A stretch of DNA of 64,000 nt, taken from NCBI GenBank assembly GCA_022574595.1, contig JACZRS010000003.1, forward strand, positions 186,001 to 250,000, written 5' to 3'. Positions within the stretch are counted from its first letter, which is position 1. Each line of letters begins with the position of its first letter. Of the stretch, positions 1,545 through 27,509 are shown piece after piece. The position numbers and the translations under genes are program-made. The notes beneath the pieces were generated by a model, which was not told where the DNA came from, ran no database searches, and saw only the letters and a program-made list of their open reading frames with translations. The DNA is from Planctomycetota bacterium. Lineage in GTDB: Bacteria > Planctomycetota > Phycisphaerae > Phycisphaerales > SM1A02.

Positions 1545-1573
1545 TCGTCAAACCAAAGTACTATTTTTATACT
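1545..1573 (+). promoter_or_regulatory. Promoter module, copy 2 (weak -35)
   Basis: TCGTCA (1545-1550), 17 bases, TATACT (1568-1573). The -10 and following TACTATAA match copy 3, but the -35 has drifted from TTGACA, so this copy may be weaker. Confidence 0.5.
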
Positions 1574-1633
1574 TACTATAATAGTTGGACCTTGGGTGGT
1601 TTGTTGCATATTTGTAGTAGACAAGGAGTTCTT

Positions 1634-1648
1634 ATGGGGAGAGAGTAA
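1634..1648 (+). other. Four-codon ORF with SD, unit A
   Basis: AGGAG at 1624-1628 precedes ATG GGG AGA GAG TAA (Met-Gly-Arg-Glu). The same SD, spacing and length recur in unit B. It could be a leader peptide or the decayed start of a duplicated gene. Confidence 0.35.
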
Positions 1649-1861
1649 TCCGCTGGGACGGTACTCGGTGAGGCGGTGAGGTGGGCTGATTAACTTGGGT
1701 GATTTGTTTTCTGTGGCGAATTACTGATGACGAAGCGCAAAAAATTGTTGAGGATTCTCGATCCCAATCCCCACCCCGATCCCGACCTCGATCTCGAGTT
1801 GGAATTACTTATAGAGCAAATAGTATGACTGCAATAAACCACAAAATCCTAAAGTCTAACC

Positions 1862-1890
1862 TTGACAAACCAAAGCCATATTTTTATACT
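1862..1890 (+). promoter_or_regulatory. Sigma70-type promoter, copy 3, upstream of the HxlR-like regulator
   Basis: TTGACA (1862-1867), exactly 17 bases, TATACT (1885-1890). It is followed by ACTATAAAATTGTC, matching copy 1. It is the nearest strong promoter to the gene at 2096, which would have a leader of about 200 bases. Confidence 0.7.
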
Positions 1891-1950
1891 TACTATAAAA
1901 TTGTCGCTTAGGTGGTTTGTAGCAGTATTTGTAGTGGATCAGGAGTTATA

Positions 1951-1965
1951 ATGGGGATGGAATAA
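1951..1965 (+). other. Four-codon ORF with SD, unit B
   Basis: AGGAG at 1941-1945 precedes ATG GGG ATG GAA TAA (Met-Gly-Met-Glu). The -10 to SD distance (about 50 bases) is the same as in unit A. Confidence 0.35.
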
Positions 1966-2095
1966 TCGGTTGGACGGTTGGACGGTTGGTCGCCGAGTCG
2001 GTGTATAGGGGGGTGTCATTATTACGGGGGGACGCCGGAGACAACATTGCTAGTAAGCTCTGTTTCAATTCGATTTACTAGCCAAACAAGCAACC

Positions 2096-2710
2096 ATGAC
2101 TATTAAGAAGTACAAACCAGGTTCCAAAGATAAGCTCTTAAGTCAGGGTAAACGCAATTCCAGCGTTGGCCGAGCTAAGCAAATTATTAGTATTATTAAG
2201 CTTTTTCATCGAAGGTGGGCTGCTCCCGTATTAGCGGAGCTGTATGCAGATAAAGGAGCAAAAGCGGTTACGCTTACTAACAGGTTAGGCGTTAGTCGCG
2301 AATCTTTGCGCTGCGCGCTTGATGAGTTGATTACCAACGGCTGGATTGCGCGCAATCCCGGGTATGGCCATCCTCTGAGGCCTGAGTACTTGCTCACAAA
2401 ACGCGGAGCGAAACTTGCACCAATCTGCTTTTCACTAATGAAAACTCTCAAGCGCCTAGGTGTGCAGCGAAGCGCATTACTCAAGTGGTCAATGCCTATC
2501 GCTCTAGCGCTAGGCAGCGGTATTGATAGATTTGGTGAGCTTAAACGATCTTTGCCGGGTATAACTGCACGAGCGCTAACACTTGGATTAAAGGAAATGC
2601 AAAGTTCGGGATTAGTAGATAGGCGAATACTGGATCAATATCCGCCAACCAGTTCGTATAGCCTGACACCTAAAGGGCGTAGGCTGCTGCCAATTCTTCA
2701 ATCCCTTTAG
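2096..2710 (+). CDS. Double HxlR-type winged-helix transcriptional regulator
   Basis: 204 residues made of two winged-helix domains in tandem. The second (about residues 128-203) is a near-textbook HxlR domain: FGELKRSLPGITARALTLGL, then LKEMQSSGLVDRR and YSLTPKGRRLLPIL. The first (about 36-110) has the same plan but is diverged: LFHRRWAAPVLAEL, VTLTNRLGVSRESLRCALDE, then YLLTKRGAKLAPI. HxlR proteins are usually about 110 residues and dimerise, so this protein looks like a covalent dimer. The N-terminal Cys common in redox-sensing HxlR members is not evident. The first 35 residues are Lys/Arg/Ser-rich. No good SD precedes the ATG. It lies downstream of three promoter modules and upstream of the MoaD-like/propeller pair, which makes local regulation plausible but unproven. 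Confidence 0.8.
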   Translation: MTIKKYKPGSKDKLLSQGKRNSSVGRAKQIISIIKLFHRRWAAPVLAELYADKGAKAVTLTNRLGVSRESLRCALDELITNGWIARNPGYGHPLRPEYLLTKRGAKLAPICFSLMKTLKRLGVQRSALLKWSMPIALALGSGIDRFGELKRSLPGITARALTLGLKEMQSSGLVDRRILDQYPPTSSYSLTPKGRRLLPILQSL

Positions 2711-2729
2711 CGGTTAATACTTGACATTG

Positions 2730-2780
2730 TGTGATTGAAATTGCGAATTACTGCTTGAAATAGTAATATCTACAATCACA
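2730..2780. promoter_or_regulatory. Inverted repeat upstream of the MoaD-like gene
   Basis: TGTGATTG at 2730-2737 and its exact reverse complement CAATCACA at 2773-2780 flank 35 AT-rich bases. A TTGACA (2721-2726) sits just before, without a good -10 at 17 bases. It lies between the regulator and the MoaD-like gene and could be an operator or a loop-forming pair of half-sites. Confidence 0.4.
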
Positions 2781-2841
2781 ACAAGTAATAGATTAAATCA
2801 TTATGCCTTCTGTTTTCTTGATATTTGTAATAGGAAAAGCT

Positions 2842-3111
2842 GTGCCACACGTTAGATTCACAGACAACATTCAGCGGCACGTTAAGTGCCCAGCCGCAGA
2901 AGCGCAAGGGGAAACAGTACGCGAAGTATTAACAGCGTACTTTGCTGAAATTCCATTTGCAAAAAATTATGTGCTTGATGATCAAGGCGCGCTTCGTAAA
3001 CACATGGTGATATTCGTTAACTCGCAGCAAATTGCCGATCGAGTCAAACTTAGTGATTCGGTTCCAAGTGATGGGACTGTAGAAATCATTCAAGCGCTCT
3101 CAGGCGGTTAA
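2842..3111 (+). CDS. MoaD/ThiS-family ubiquitin-like protein
   Basis: I place the start at GTG 2842, which has AGGA 6 bases upstream and gives 89 residues opening with PHVRFTDNIQRHV. An ATG at 2803 would add 13 hydrophobic residues untypical of the family. The body shows the beta-grasp pattern (VREVLTAYFAEIP, then HMVIFVNSQQIAD, then DGTVEIIQALSGG). The C-terminal Gly-Gly is what MoaD/ThiS proteins need for adenylation and thiocarboxylate formation. No E1-like MoeB/ThiF or MoaE is in the window, so a molybdopterin role is not supported. The propeller gene 74 bases downstream suggests a dedicated two-gene unit. Confidence 0.8.
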   Translation: MPHVRFTDNIQRHVKCPAAEAQGETVREVLTAYFAEIPFAKNYVLDDQGALRKHMVIFVNSQQIADRVKLSDSVPSDGTVEIIQALSGG

Positions 3112-3185
3112 CAAACTCCTTTGGGAAATTACGATGGGCTTAGGATTAGCAGTAAAAGAATGTACTTAGTAGTAAAGGTAACACA

Positions 3186-4304
3186 ATGAGTGATCGTATC
3201 CTTGTAGCAACTCGTAAAGGTTTATTTACCATTACGAAGAGTAACACCGGTTGGTCTATTTCCCAAGCAGATTTTCTAGCAGATAATTGCTCAATGGTTA
3301 TGCATGATCCTAGAGATGGGATGTTGCTGGTTGGTCTAGATCATGGACATTTTGGATGTAAAATGCATCGATCGCGCAATGGTGGTAAGAGTTGGGAAGA
3401 ATGTGCATCGCCCGCTTACCCCGAAAAGCCGGATGACTTTGAAGATATTCCCAATCCCATGTCTAATACGGTTATTAAGTGGAATACTGAGCTGCTTTGG
3501 GAATTGCAGCCTGGGGGTAATGATGAGCCTGGTGTTATATGGTGTGGTACTTTGCCCGGGGGATTGTTCCGTTCAAATGATGCAGGAGATAGTTGGGAGC
3601 TGAATCGCACACTTTGGGAAGATCCGCGCAGGCAAGAATGGTTCGGTGGCGGGTTCGATTATCCGGGTATTCATTCGATACACGTTGACCCACGCGATTC
3701 AGCACACATATTGCTCGGCGTATCCTGCGGTGGTGTTTGGCGAACTACTGATGGTGGCAAAACATGGGAATGTGACGGCACAGGTATGAGAGCGGAGTAC
3801 ATGCCTGAAGAAAAGGCATACGATCCGGGTATACAAGATCCGCATATACTTGTGCGATGTCGCGATTCTTTGGATTGCCTTTGGGTGCAGCACCATAACG
3901 GAATCTTTCGCTCAACAGATAACGCACGATCCTGGCAGGAAATCACTGATGTCAAGCCATCAACCTTTGGCTTTGCGGTTGCGGTTCATCCAGCCGATCC
4001 GAATACCGCCTGGTTTGTACCGGCTATTAAGGATGAAAAGCGAATACCTGTTGATGCAAAGGTTGTTGTAACGCGTACAAGAGACGGCGGCGAAACGTTT
4101 GAGCAATTAAGCAAAGGTTTGCCGCAGGAACACGCATACGATTTAACGTTTCGTCACTCACTAGATGTGGATGAAAACGGCGATCGACTTGTATTTGGAA
4201 CTACAACGGGTTCACTTTGGGTTTCAGAAGATCAAGGCGATTCCTGGCAGAATGTTTCTACTCACCTGCCACCGATTTACTGCACAAGATTTGTTAAAGA
4301 GTAA
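3186..4304 (+). CDS. BNR/YVTN-type beta-propeller (exo-alpha-sialidase-like) protein
   Basis: 372 residues without a signal peptide, so probably cytoplasmic. It contains repeated Asp-box (BNR) motifs S-x-D-x-G-x-x-W: RSRNGGKSWEE, RSNDAGDSWEL, RTTDGGKTWEC, RSTDNARSWQE, RTRDGGETFEQ and VSEDQGDSWQN. Each caps a propeller blade. The opening DRILVATRKGLFTI is typical of a cytoplasmic family commonly annotated as WD40/YVTN/BNR-like or exo-alpha-sialidase. As I recall, members of this family often lie next to a MoaD/ThiS-like gene, as here. True sialidase activity would need the Arg triad and RIP motif, which I do not see. The role of the pair is unknown. Confidence 0.8.
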   Translation: MSDRILVATRKGLFTITKSNTGWSISQADFLADNCSMVMHDPRDGMLLVGLDHGHFGCKMHRSRNGGKSWEECASPAYPEKPDDFEDIPNPMSNTVIKWNTELLWELQPGGNDEPGVIWCGTLPGGLFRSNDAGDSWELNRTLWEDPRRQEWFGGGFDYPGIHSIHVDPRDSAHILLGVSCGGVWRTTDGGKTWECDGTGMRAEYMPEEKAYDPGIQDPHILVRCRDSLDCLWVQHHNGIFRSTDNARSWQEITDVKPSTFGFAVAVHPADPNTAWFVPAIKDEKRIPVDAKVVVTRTRDGGETFEQLSKGLPQEHAYDLTFRHSLDVDENGDRLVFGTTTGSLWVSEDQGDSWQNVSTHLPPIYCTRFVKE

Positions 4305-24862: not shown

Positions 24863-25849
24863 CTACTTTTCGACGATTCGCCCATCATGCAGATGAACTA
24901 CACGGTCTGCGCGTATTGCTATTGCGGGATCGTGTGTGACCATAACGATCGTCAGTCCATTACTATGCTGCTTTGCGATTAGATCGAGAATCTCAGCGCC
25001 GGTTTTTTCATCAAGGTTGCCGGTCGGTTCATCTGCGAGCAGAACTTTGGGATTATTCACCAGCGCTCTGGCGATGGCAACGCGCTGACGTTCACCGCCA
25101 GATAGTTCGGAAGGTTTGTGCTTGAGTCGATGCCCAAGCCCAAACGATTCAAGCAATTGGACCGCGTGTTTGTGCATCTCTTTATAGCTGGCACTTTTTC
25201 GGAACAGCAATGATTGCACTTCTAGGCACAAGAAAGTCCCGAGGCCCGCAGCAATAACTCCACTACCCAGCGCCACCAACAGGAGGATGACTATAACAAA
25301 GAGTCTTTCTTTCCACCATAGAAGTTGGCTAATGTCAAGGCTTGCCCATATTGGGGCAGACAGCAAACTTACATATAGAGTTGATGCAGTAAGTCCCACC
25401 AGGATTGCCCCAACCCACCTTGCCAGGCGAAACCATGATGGGTTCATGGAAGCTTTGACGAAGCTTGGCAGCAATCCATTATCGATAACATTCAATTCAG
25501 GCAACAGGTGATAAAACTGAAACACAAACCCGATCGACTGATTGCGGTATTGATCGCGTTCTTTGCGCGACATTTCAGCTAGAGATTGACCATTAAAAGA
25601 AACCTTGCCGCCCTTTGCATCAGCAGTATCAAGATCGCCCAGCAGGTGAAGCAGCGTACTTTTGCCCGAGCCCGAAGAGCCAAGCACCGCTATCCACTCG
25701 CCTTCTTTTACTTCTAGCGAAGCTCCTTTTAGAACCGGTACATCCACTCGTCCGAGGCGATAGGTTTTGCTAATATTATCAGCAACAAGTATTGTGCTCG
25801 TCTTTACAGACTTTATGGGAAATTCAAATTCACTGGTCTTTGTAGCCAC
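24863..25849 (-). CDS. LolD-like ABC ATPase with a membrane insertion
   Basis: 328 residues, against about 230 for LolD. Walker A GSSGSGKST (58-66), Q-loop Gln111 (VFQFYHLLPELNV), signature LSGGERQ (249-255), Walker B KVLLADEP (268-275), D-loop NLDEKT and H-loop His306 are all present, so it should hydrolyse ATP. Residues about 132-222, in the helical subdomain between Q-loop and signature, are an insertion with two strongly hydrophobic stretches (AILVGLTASTLYVSLLSAPI and LFVIVILLLVALGSGVIAAG). After it the LolD pattern resumes (LLESFGLGHRLKHKPSELSG). It ends 7 bases before the permease start, in one operon. The pair probably moves lipoproteins or similar envelope cargo. Confidence 0.85.
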   Translation of the reverse strand: MATKTSEFEFPIKSVKTSTILVADNISKTYRLGRVDVPVLKGASLEVKEGEWIAVLGSSGSGKSTLLHLLGDLDTADAKGGKVSFNGQSLAEMSRKERDQYRNQSIGFVFQFYHLLPELNVIDNGLLPSFVKASMNPSWFRLARWVGAILVGLTASTLYVSLLSAPIWASLDISQLLWWKERLFVIVILLLVALGSGVIAAGLGTFLCLEVQSLLFRKSASYKEMHKHAVQLLESFGLGHRLKHKPSELSGGERQRVAIARALVNNPKVLLADEPTGNLDEKTGAEILDLIAKQHSNGLTIVMVTHDPAIAIRADRVVHLHDGRIVEK

Positions 25850-25856
25850 GCTTTAA

Positions 25857-27509
25857 TTACTCATATCTAAGTGCACGAACAGGATCTATATCTGCTGCCT
25901 TAGCCGCGGGCAGAAACGCACCAATCAGTGAAAACACTACTGCGCCAACCATTGTGATGATCGCAGTTACTTTATCCATTTGGTTTGGAATGTACGTAAA
26001 GTAGTAAACCGTTGGATCCCAAATTACCACGCCACCACTCTCTTTTAGAACTATGATTCCAACGCCTGCCCCGATTAGTGTTATAGCAATGAGTGCGCCC
26101 AGCGCGATGGGCAGCAAGTCTCCTTTGCGCCCATGATATGCACTTATAGCAATTACAATTGCTCCTATTACAAGAAAAATGATTGCCAGCCAAACAGGTG
26201 GATCGCCTAAGGCACCATGTATTATGTTTATGTTGTGTACCACAAGGTAGGCAATACCAACCCCAACAACTGCGCCTGCGATACCTATTATTAATCCGTA
26301 GCGCAGGAATATCCAGGAGATACCCATGCGTGAAGCACCGATTGACCTCAATATGCCTATGTCGCGGGTTTTTTCATATACGATGGCCCAGAAGATTGCC
26401 AGCACGAGTCCTGCGCATACTAAATACACCAAAGAAAAGAGTGTGCGCATTAGTTCGCGTTCTTTTTCAATTGGGCCAATAAACGCTGCTTGCTGCTCCT
26501 CCCAGGTACTAATGGATATGCTCAGTTCGTGTGGTGGCATTTTTATAATGGCAGTATCATCTGCATTAATCTCTTGTTCAAAAGCCTCATAAACTTCTTG
26601 CACTCTACTTTTAAGCGTCTTGGGATCGATCCCGTCTGTAGCGCGCACCAGAATCATCGTCGCACGTCCAGGGTTTATACCAACAACCTTTGGAATACCA
26701 AATTCATCAAAATCGTTGGGATCCACTTCTTCAGCTTCATGCAGTTGCAAACGTTTTTGCGCAACCTCAAAGGGAATTATTACACGAGTGTCATCAATCA
26801 AAAACACCCCTGAGGAAAACTCATTAACTATACGAAACTTGACATTTTCTGGTTCTGGTATGACCGTCCCGCCACCTGTGGGCATGATTGTCAATGTGAC
26901 CTCAAATTGTGGCATCCACCAATAGCCATTGAGCGCTGGGAGAATCGAGCCATCTTTTTGGCGCTCATTACCCTGGGAAATGTGAAGCCCCAAGACAATT
27001 CCAGCTTTGTTCCCATTAAACTGTAAATTCAAACCGTTTTGCAACACTTCTTCCAGAATATCTGGCGTAATCTCGTGGCGAAAATCTGCTTCAGACATAT
27101 CCTCAGTTACTGGCTTCCAATAAAGACTCTCCGCGTAACCGGTAACTTTGGCGAAACTCTTAGCTTCAATCCCCCAGAACTGGACCGTTTCGGTATCTTT
27201 GCGCTCACCATCTGGATAAGGCATACGAAGCAGCCCCCAGCCATCAACAACCGGCGTGGCAGCTTCTGTTTCGGGTAGAGCTTTTATCCGCTCGATCAGT
27301 CTTTCATAGTGAGGTATGCCGTTGACTGGGTAGGCAACGATTACATCACCCATAAGCGATTTGCCTGATGAACGCACCATGTCCAGGAAGCCGGTCATAA
27401 TTGAAACGACAATGATGACTAATGCAACGCATAGTGCCACTGCACCGACCGCAACGATGGGTATTACGCGCGAGGTCAGGTAGCGATTAGTGAGCAGTGA
27501 GTGGTACAT
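25857..27509 (-). CDS. LolC/LolE-like ABC permease (FtsX family) with extra helices
   Basis: 550 residues. TM1 lies near 18-40 (IVAVGAVALCVALVIIVVSI) and is followed by a periplasmic MacB-PCD domain of about 320 residues. The FtsX core follows with EKTRDIGILRSIGASRMGIS, a LolC hallmark, and ends in AADIDPVRALRYE. Between TM3 and TM4 (about residues 434-497) there are two extra hydrophobic segments (WLAIIFLVIGAIVIAISAYH and LPIALGALIAITLIGAGVG) before VYYFTYIP. Ordinary LolC has only a short loop there. The ATPase partner lies 7 bases downstream and also carries extra helices. Only one permease gene is present, so a homodimer is likely. Confidence 0.87.
   Translation of the reverse strand: MYHSLLTNRYLTSRVIPIVAVGAVALCVALVIIVVSIMTGFLDMVRSSGKSLMGDVIVAYPVNGIPHYERLIERIKALPETEAATPVVDGWGLLRMPYPDGERKDTETVQFWGIEAKSFAKVTGYAESLYWKPVTEDMSEADFRHEITPDILEEVLQNGLNLQFNGNKAGIVLGLHISQGNERQKDGSILPALNGYWWMPQFEVTLTIMPTGGGTVIPEPENVKFRIVNEFSSGVFLIDDTRVIIPFEVAQKRLQLHEAEEVDPNDFDEFGIPKVVGINPGRATMILVRATDGIDPKTLKSRVQEVYEAFEQEINADDTAIIKMPPHELSISISTWEEQQAAFIGPIEKERELMRTLFSLVYLVCAGLVLAIFWAIVYEKTRDIGILRSIGASRMGISWIFLRYGLIIGIAGAVVGVGIAYLVVHNINIIHGALGDPPVWLAIIFLVIGAIVIAISAYHGRKGDLLPIALGALIAITLIGAGVGIIVLKESGGVVIWDPTVYYFTYIPNQMDKVTAIITMVGAVVFSLIGAFLPAAKAADIDPVRALRYE

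Follow-up and report, generated by a model that had tools for sequence, protein, structure and literature searches.

What does a membrane hairpin do in an ABC ATPase of a kind that normally works as a peripheral subunit? LolD is normally peripheral and has no transmembrane (TM) segments, and in type VII transporters the cytoplasmic ATPases push the permease from beneath, chiefly through coupling helices. The LolD-like ATPase encoded in the window (the whole stretch of 64,000 nucleotides that was analysed) departs from LolD by two predicted TM helices, in which an earlier note had suspected a new coupling design. We think it likely that this protein is the ATPase of a LolF-LolD-like type VII transporter, and that a TM hairpin at its alpha3-alpha4 turn makes it an integral subunit, anchored beside the permease. 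The gene was found at the coordinates given in the earlier note, on the minus strand, and its features are the following:

24863 to 25849, minus strand: LolD-like ABC ATPase gene, 328 aa, GTG start
25655 to 25681, minus strand: Walker A (GSSGSGKST)
25517 to 25519, minus strand: Q-loop glutamine, model residue 110
25184 to 25456, minus strand: insert in the helical subdomain, after alpha3 and before alpha4; about 91 residues with respect to E. coli LolD
25361 to 25441, minus strand: insert helix 1, model residues 136-162, predicted to run into the membrane from the cytoplasmic side as a TM helix
25196 to 25327, minus strand: insert helix 2, model residues 174-217, predicted to cross the membrane and to extend into the cytoplasm
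25091 to 25105, minus strand: ABC signature LSGGE
25025 to 25042, minus strand: Walker B region (LLADEP)
24932 to 24934, minus strand: H-loop histidine, model residue 305

Residue numbers of the model and the alignments omit the first codon of the ATPase. The catalytic motifs of a LolD-type ATPase, described earlier as all intact, are indeed present (Walker A, Q-loop, LSGGE, Walker B within ADEPTGNLD, and H-loop). As expected for the ATPase of an ABC transporter, the protein scored 112 bits against Pfam ABC_tran PF00005 (cut-off 25), with a match of 711 nt, and the 22 other places of its own genome above this cut-off gave matches of at most 519 nt. The top NCBIfam model was that of LolD (TIGR02211), with 249.4 bits, which is under the curated cut-off of 307.75. 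This cut-off was also missed by a relative with the hairpin (L006, 229.9 bits) and by three relatives without it (L018, L030 and L052, with 248.9, 232.4 and 236.4 bits, respectively). Since hairpin-less relatives fall short too, the low score looks linked to the lineage and not to the insert, and its closeness to that of insert-less L018 suggests that the ABC core is unharmed by the insert. The window's ATPase is a member of the LolD/MacB/FtsE group and belongs to a divergent lineage.

The alignment with E. coli LolD stops at query residue 130 and restarts at 222, and in LolD the corresponding gap, from position 114 to 120, is filled by 5 residues only. With 91 residues against 5, the insert amounts to about 91 aa, in good agreement with the roughly 90 residues reported earlier between Q-loop and signature, and it begins about 21 residues past the Q-loop glutamine. 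The two hydrophobic stretches that had been noticed were recovered as well: the two most hydrophobic separate 19-mers of the protein both fall inside the insert, with Kyte-Doolittle peaks of 2.94 and 1.78. When the protein was shuffled 10,000 times, both peaks were reached jointly in 9 cases, the stronger one alone in 19 and the weaker one alone in 1,302, so that the weaker stretch is unremarkable taken singly. Between Q-loop and signature, the best 19-mer ranged from 0.04 to 1.64 in 69 insert-less LolD-like loci, and from 1.81 to 2.94 in 51 hairpin rows, among which the same genomes are repeated. The charges flanking the stretches (K/R versus D/E), summed over 23 sequences, were 41/0 for the N-flank, 27/52 for the loop and 55/24 for the C-flank; these sums count near-identical sequences and exclude the short variant L042 from the 24 proteins supplied. 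This is a positive-inside pattern, as it would be expected of a hairpin with both termini in the cytoplasm.

AlphaFold2, run on the ATPase with an alignment of 47 sequences from the window and genome contigs, returned an ordinary, complete ABC domain to which a hairpin of two helices is added, with a mean pLDDT of 90.3. The model places helices 136-162 and 174-217 between alpha3 (residues 120-133) and alpha4 (219-234), with block pLDDT values of 78-88 on the insert helices and of 62-69 near the turn (residues 161-180), and it matched E. coli LolD (9rlc_D) with Z 31.6 and an rmsd of 1.5 Å over 224 residues. The earlier note had allowed for the stretches being buried soluble helices. Two long predicted helices on an intact ABC fold, together with the positive-inside flanks, point the other way, and their resemblance to a membrane hairpin is well supported by prediction.

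In MacB, ATPase and permease are linked along the protein's own chain and not via an insert in the helical subdomain, and the ABC ATPase MlaF is bound at its helical subdomain by a separate regulator, MlaB. MacB and FtsE share the ABC fold with the window's ATPase (5lj9, Z 32.1; 6z63, Z 29.6), but their chains align only to its core, over 223 and 219 residues, respectively. The MlaF-MlaB pair (PMC7367683) is similar in that an extra element acts on an ABC ATPase away from the contacts that are usual with a permease; MlaB is a STAS protein of its own, whereas in the window the element belongs to the ATPase chain itself and is predicted to cross the membrane. A Pfam scan of the window's insert with E up to 1 gave no known domain, and the inserts of three other members gave only matches below the cut-off, for instance to a glycine zipper (E 0.0015). 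In the PDB, the best 60 of 85 distinct sequences (E <= 1e-30) have their best-aligning stretch entirely to one side of query residues 131-211, a comparison that leaves room for an insert-bearing structure elsewhere. Among the papers listed in our literature searches, titles and the beginnings of abstracts yielded no TM insert in the helical subdomain of an ABC ATPase or in LolD, and such a report may exist.

The GTG start of the ATPase lies 7 bp beyond the stop of the upstream gene, which encodes the permease:

25857 to 27509, minus strand: LolF/LolC/E-like permease, upstream neighbour, 550 aa, six predicted TM helices
26343 to 26369, minus strand: permease coupling helix, residues 381-389, retained
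26040 to 26195, minus strand: two extra predicted helices of the permease, spanning residues 439-461 and 465-490 of its TM3-TM4 'shoulder'

With helix names assigned by analogy with LolC/E, the order in the permease is N-terminal helix, TM1, periplasmic domain, TM2, coupling helix, TM3, the two extra helices and TM4. In E. coli LolC/E, each subunit has four TM helices and the TM3-TM4 segment is termed the 'shoulder', according to PMC8333309. The fold of the window's permease matched 9xro_E (Z 26.1, rmsd 5.2, 374 residues aligned) and 9rlc_E (Z 23.9, rmsd 4.3, 404 aligned). Its score against TIGR02212 was 136.7 bits, under the cut-off of 362.45, and its six predicted TM helices exceed the four of LolF, LolC and LolE. 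In a relative, L066, the shoulder of the LolF-like permease (1569-3617) is about 163 residues long, and six hydrophobic stretches follow the coupling motif.

A permease gene of LolC/E fold immediately upstream of the ATPase gene is the arrangement of a LolF-LolD operon. In comparison with LolD of E. coli LolCDE (PDB 9rlc, 7arh and others), the window's ATPase has the same ABC fold and motifs, with 47% identity over 224 residues, and its partner permease has the LolC/LolE fold, but the ATPase is longer by about 91 residues with two predicted TM helices, the single adjoining permease gene encodes two extra helices, and no LolA was found. LolF-LolD, with its homodimeric permease, likewise has one permease gene directly upstream in an operon-like layout, as given in the review PMC11784454, and the ATPase hairpin and the six-TM permease of the window set the present pair apart from it. 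The review calls lolA typical; here, a search with PF03548 (LolA) gave a match in one of 41 genomes and none in the other 40, the window's own genome included, a count to be read with the caveat that a divergent LolA may escape this model, which also matches two archaeal controls. LolF-LolD-like pairs were common in the group despite this scarcity of LolA. LolCDE proteins have been reported in another planctomycete, Tuwongella immobilis (PMC8567305). With LolA not found in the genome, it is uncertain whether the pair has a true Lol function, and a lipoprotein as substrate is speculative. Because of the LolA results and the permease score under the LolCE cut-off, we refer to the pair as LolF-LolD-like and not as LolD.

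The hairpin is not confined to the window. With a contiguous match to the full 139-column profile, it was found in 24 of the 181 genomes of the window's family, belonging to 10 of 45 genera; three further genomes (2 genera) match only to column 51-52, 13 had no match at 1e-8, and 141 matched too weakly for this hairpin, with columns 1-37 only among the matches listed. One of the carriers (G009) is a genome in a single contig of 3.8 Mb. The whole insert was aligned in 17 of 151 genomes (the window's own and 150 relatives). An even sample of the class gave contiguous alignments of carrier strength in 6 of 21 family members and in none of 277 members outside the family, where the profiles used would miss unrelated hairpins at the same ATPase site. 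Among public species genomes, whose scan is the one that reached beyond the class, the hairpin was present in 11 of 80 loci kept from at least 486 confirmed relatives (L031-L040 and L043, named as Phycisphaera, Phycisphaerales or other planctomycete bacteria), the remainder being one short form (L042), 55 insert-less loci and 13 that could not be scored by motif. The insert is therefore present in other genera, and the concern in the earlier note that no relative might share it does not hold. A second unusual insert occurs in the same ATPase type: a zinc-ribbon-like CPKC...CxxC element, seen in L027, L029, L030, L063, L068 and L164 and also in L042 and L160, about 44-45 residues past Walker A where measured and partly in the lineage with the short form.

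In LolCDE, the ATPase contacts the coupling helix, the C-terminus and the elbow helix, and ATP-driven closure shifts TM2 (PMC8333309). Across 40 permeases of the present type, little or no variation was seen in the elbow-like residues at the N-terminus or in the coupling segment E-K-T-R-D-x-G. As the coupling elements are retained and relatives operate the same type of permease hairpin-free, the hairpin would supplement and not replace the ordinary coupling. Thus, the membrane-anchor part of the new coupling design was supported by the hairpin prediction, while its new-coupling part was not, since the coupling elements are kept and hairpin-less relatives share the permease type; the design is a fair hypothesis, and a new coupling route is possible. 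As for the site, region R4 of pneumococcal FtsE (residues 101-115, i.e. Q88+13 to +27) shapes the modelled coupling-helix cavity for FtsX, according to PMC7468199, and the elbow helix of E. coli FtsEX touches R94 of FtsE, 8 residues past Q86, according to PMC11491553. These contacts at matching stretches place the insert position near the permease in homologues.

We propose that the hairpin, with cytoplasmic ends and a short extracytoplasmic loop, would turn a peripheral ATPase into an integral membrane subunit. Starting at the insert position, it could reach the bilayer alongside the permease, so that the anchored ATPase would sit next to a partner bearing its own extra TM hairpin in the shoulder. 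The ATP-driven closing of the two ATPases would still work via the conserved coupling helix, the C-terminus and the elbow helix. Most likely, the hairpin would tie the ATPase to membrane and permease, and it may also track the rotation of the helical subdomain within the bilayer. The calculations show an intact ATPase, the topology of a hairpin, its recurrence, selection on the insert in relatives and its occurrence with enlarged permeases. From these we infer that the hairpin really enters the membrane, touches the permease and serves as an anchor; anchoring is the likeliest role, a mechanical one through the extra hairpin of the permease is possible, and the transmission of force by the hairpin is speculative.

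In the relatives, the insert dN/dS was 0.03-0.31 in all but one of 12 pairs, the exception having 0.62, that of the core was 0.02-0.08 in the same pairs, and the insert exceeded the core in 11 of the 12; the pairs overlap, come from one carrier group, have in part saturated dS and exclude the window. In this carrier group, the insert is a maintained coding region which mostly evolves faster than the core, and this is easier to reconcile with an anchor under loose constraint than with a part that must couple precisely. In a tree of the ATPase core (insert removed) plus permease, with 64 rows of which 16 have the hairpin, at least six changes of the hairpin label were counted; it was built without identical cores, two partial loci, six rows that duplicate or nearly copy others, and rows whose permease was unreadable or had under three stretches in its C-terminal part. 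The window groups there with hairpin-less rows (support 94/99), and its nearest row is hairpin-less L158, with 72% identity over 743 columns. A single hairpin clade was rejected on this tree (AU p 7.6e-5). The tree of the ATPase core only (60 rows) showed five hairpin changes, of which well-supported branches force just one, and, unlike the former, pairs the window with hairpin row L002 (98/92). As the root is unsure (midpoint, with one very long row), gains and losses are indistinguishable, and L146, the earliest branch in the family, has the hairpin, so that an ancient hairpin with several losses is possible. Comparison of the two main hairpin groups by hhalign gave a probability of 7.5% (E 0.0047), and shared ancestry was not demonstrated. 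Most family members, among them close relatives whose permease is of the same type, lack the hairpin, which indicates that it is evolutionarily dispensable.

These data bear on the strongest of the alternatives, namely that the hairpin is a plain membrane anchor, targeting signal or assembly aid which has no role in the power stroke and does not touch the permease in any specific way. The faster evolution of the insert, the several gains or losses on the core-plus-permease tree and the intact coupling elements all agree with it, and so does the fact that length and layout of the hairpin are alike among carriers despite strong sequence divergence. However, the insertion site is close to the permease contacts of homologues, and carriers were found with enlarged permeases only, in 22 of 22 readable cases, an association that kinship alone could explain. 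We give this alternative somewhat less than an even chance.

The association was read from 104 rows, 17 of 121 having been dropped as their ATPase motifs could not be matched, and some genomes were doubled from two collections; hydrophobic stretches are those after the coupling motif. Permeases were readable in 22 of the 24 hairpin rows, with four stretches in 21 and three plus a long shoulder in one. All four short-form rows also have an enlarged permease (four stretches in two, three in two). The 76 hairpin-less rows comprised 49 with at least four stretches, two with three, 16 with two and nine unreadable. Among the rows read, the ATPase hairpin is confined to enlarged permeases, and relatedness alone could account for this. 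It is also such rows that make one think of an intramembrane coupling element, in which the hairpin packs on the shoulder hairpin as a fourth contact between ATPase and permease that moves in each ATP cycle. Both partners have an extra TM hairpin, the insert lies in the subdomain that, by the papers cited above, adjoins the groove for the coupling helix, and among the 10 carriers of one group helix 1 has a glycine at every fourth place (G19 and G27 invariant, G23 in at least 90%), a pattern which suits helix packing. Nevertheless, an enlarged permease is also present in 49 of the 67 hairpin-less rows with a readable permease, so the enlargement is wider than the ATPase hairpin, and we regard a coupling element as rather unlikely. 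The fuller picture, with the hairpin packed on the shoulder hairpin in an intramembrane contact, 16 TM helices in a 2+2 assembly, several gains or losses and short forms as intermediates, seems to us equally doubtful.

Less probable still is a hydrophobic hairpin that does not span the membrane, and instead makes cytosolic contacts with the other ATPase or a partner, or dips only into the inner leaflet. The two best 19-mers of the inserted stretch were 1.46-2.58 and 1.81-2.94 in 23 sequences; the first stretch reaches no more than moderate hydrophobicity in several members (1.46-1.8; 1.78 in the window, 1.46 in L005), so that a shallow or re-entrant hairpin is possible. In L023, L028 and L042 (L139-L141 are the same genomes or near copies), a short hydrophobic stub replaces the hairpin. 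The stub consists of one hydrophobic stretch, for which three sequences gave the consensus GRxxWxWYLLLAAGIxPGLIxEE. Its length does not suffice for two membrane crossings, and it may represent a remnant or an intermediate stage; by hhalign, the hairpins matched the stubs with probabilities of 2.4% and 1.0% only. Against a hairpin outside the membrane stand the peaks of the second stretch, the positive-inside pattern and the predicted helix lengths of 27 and 44 residues. Finally, the window comes from a draft genome in 31 contigs, but an assembly chimera, frameshift or contaminating sequence was ruled out for practical purposes by the same kind of insert in 24 of 181 family genomes, one of them in a single contig, and in named assemblies, with the relatives' inserts in frame and under purifying selection.

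An integral ATPase anchored beside its permease is therefore the reading that we favour. With the hairpin present in 10 genera, and shortened or absent in relatives whose permease is of the same type, nature offers an experiment on the contacts that ATPase and permease need. If the hairpin packs on the permease, there would be a second coupling route, within the membrane; if it is an anchor only, it would show that the ABC core readily tolerates the conversion of a peripheral into an integral subunit.
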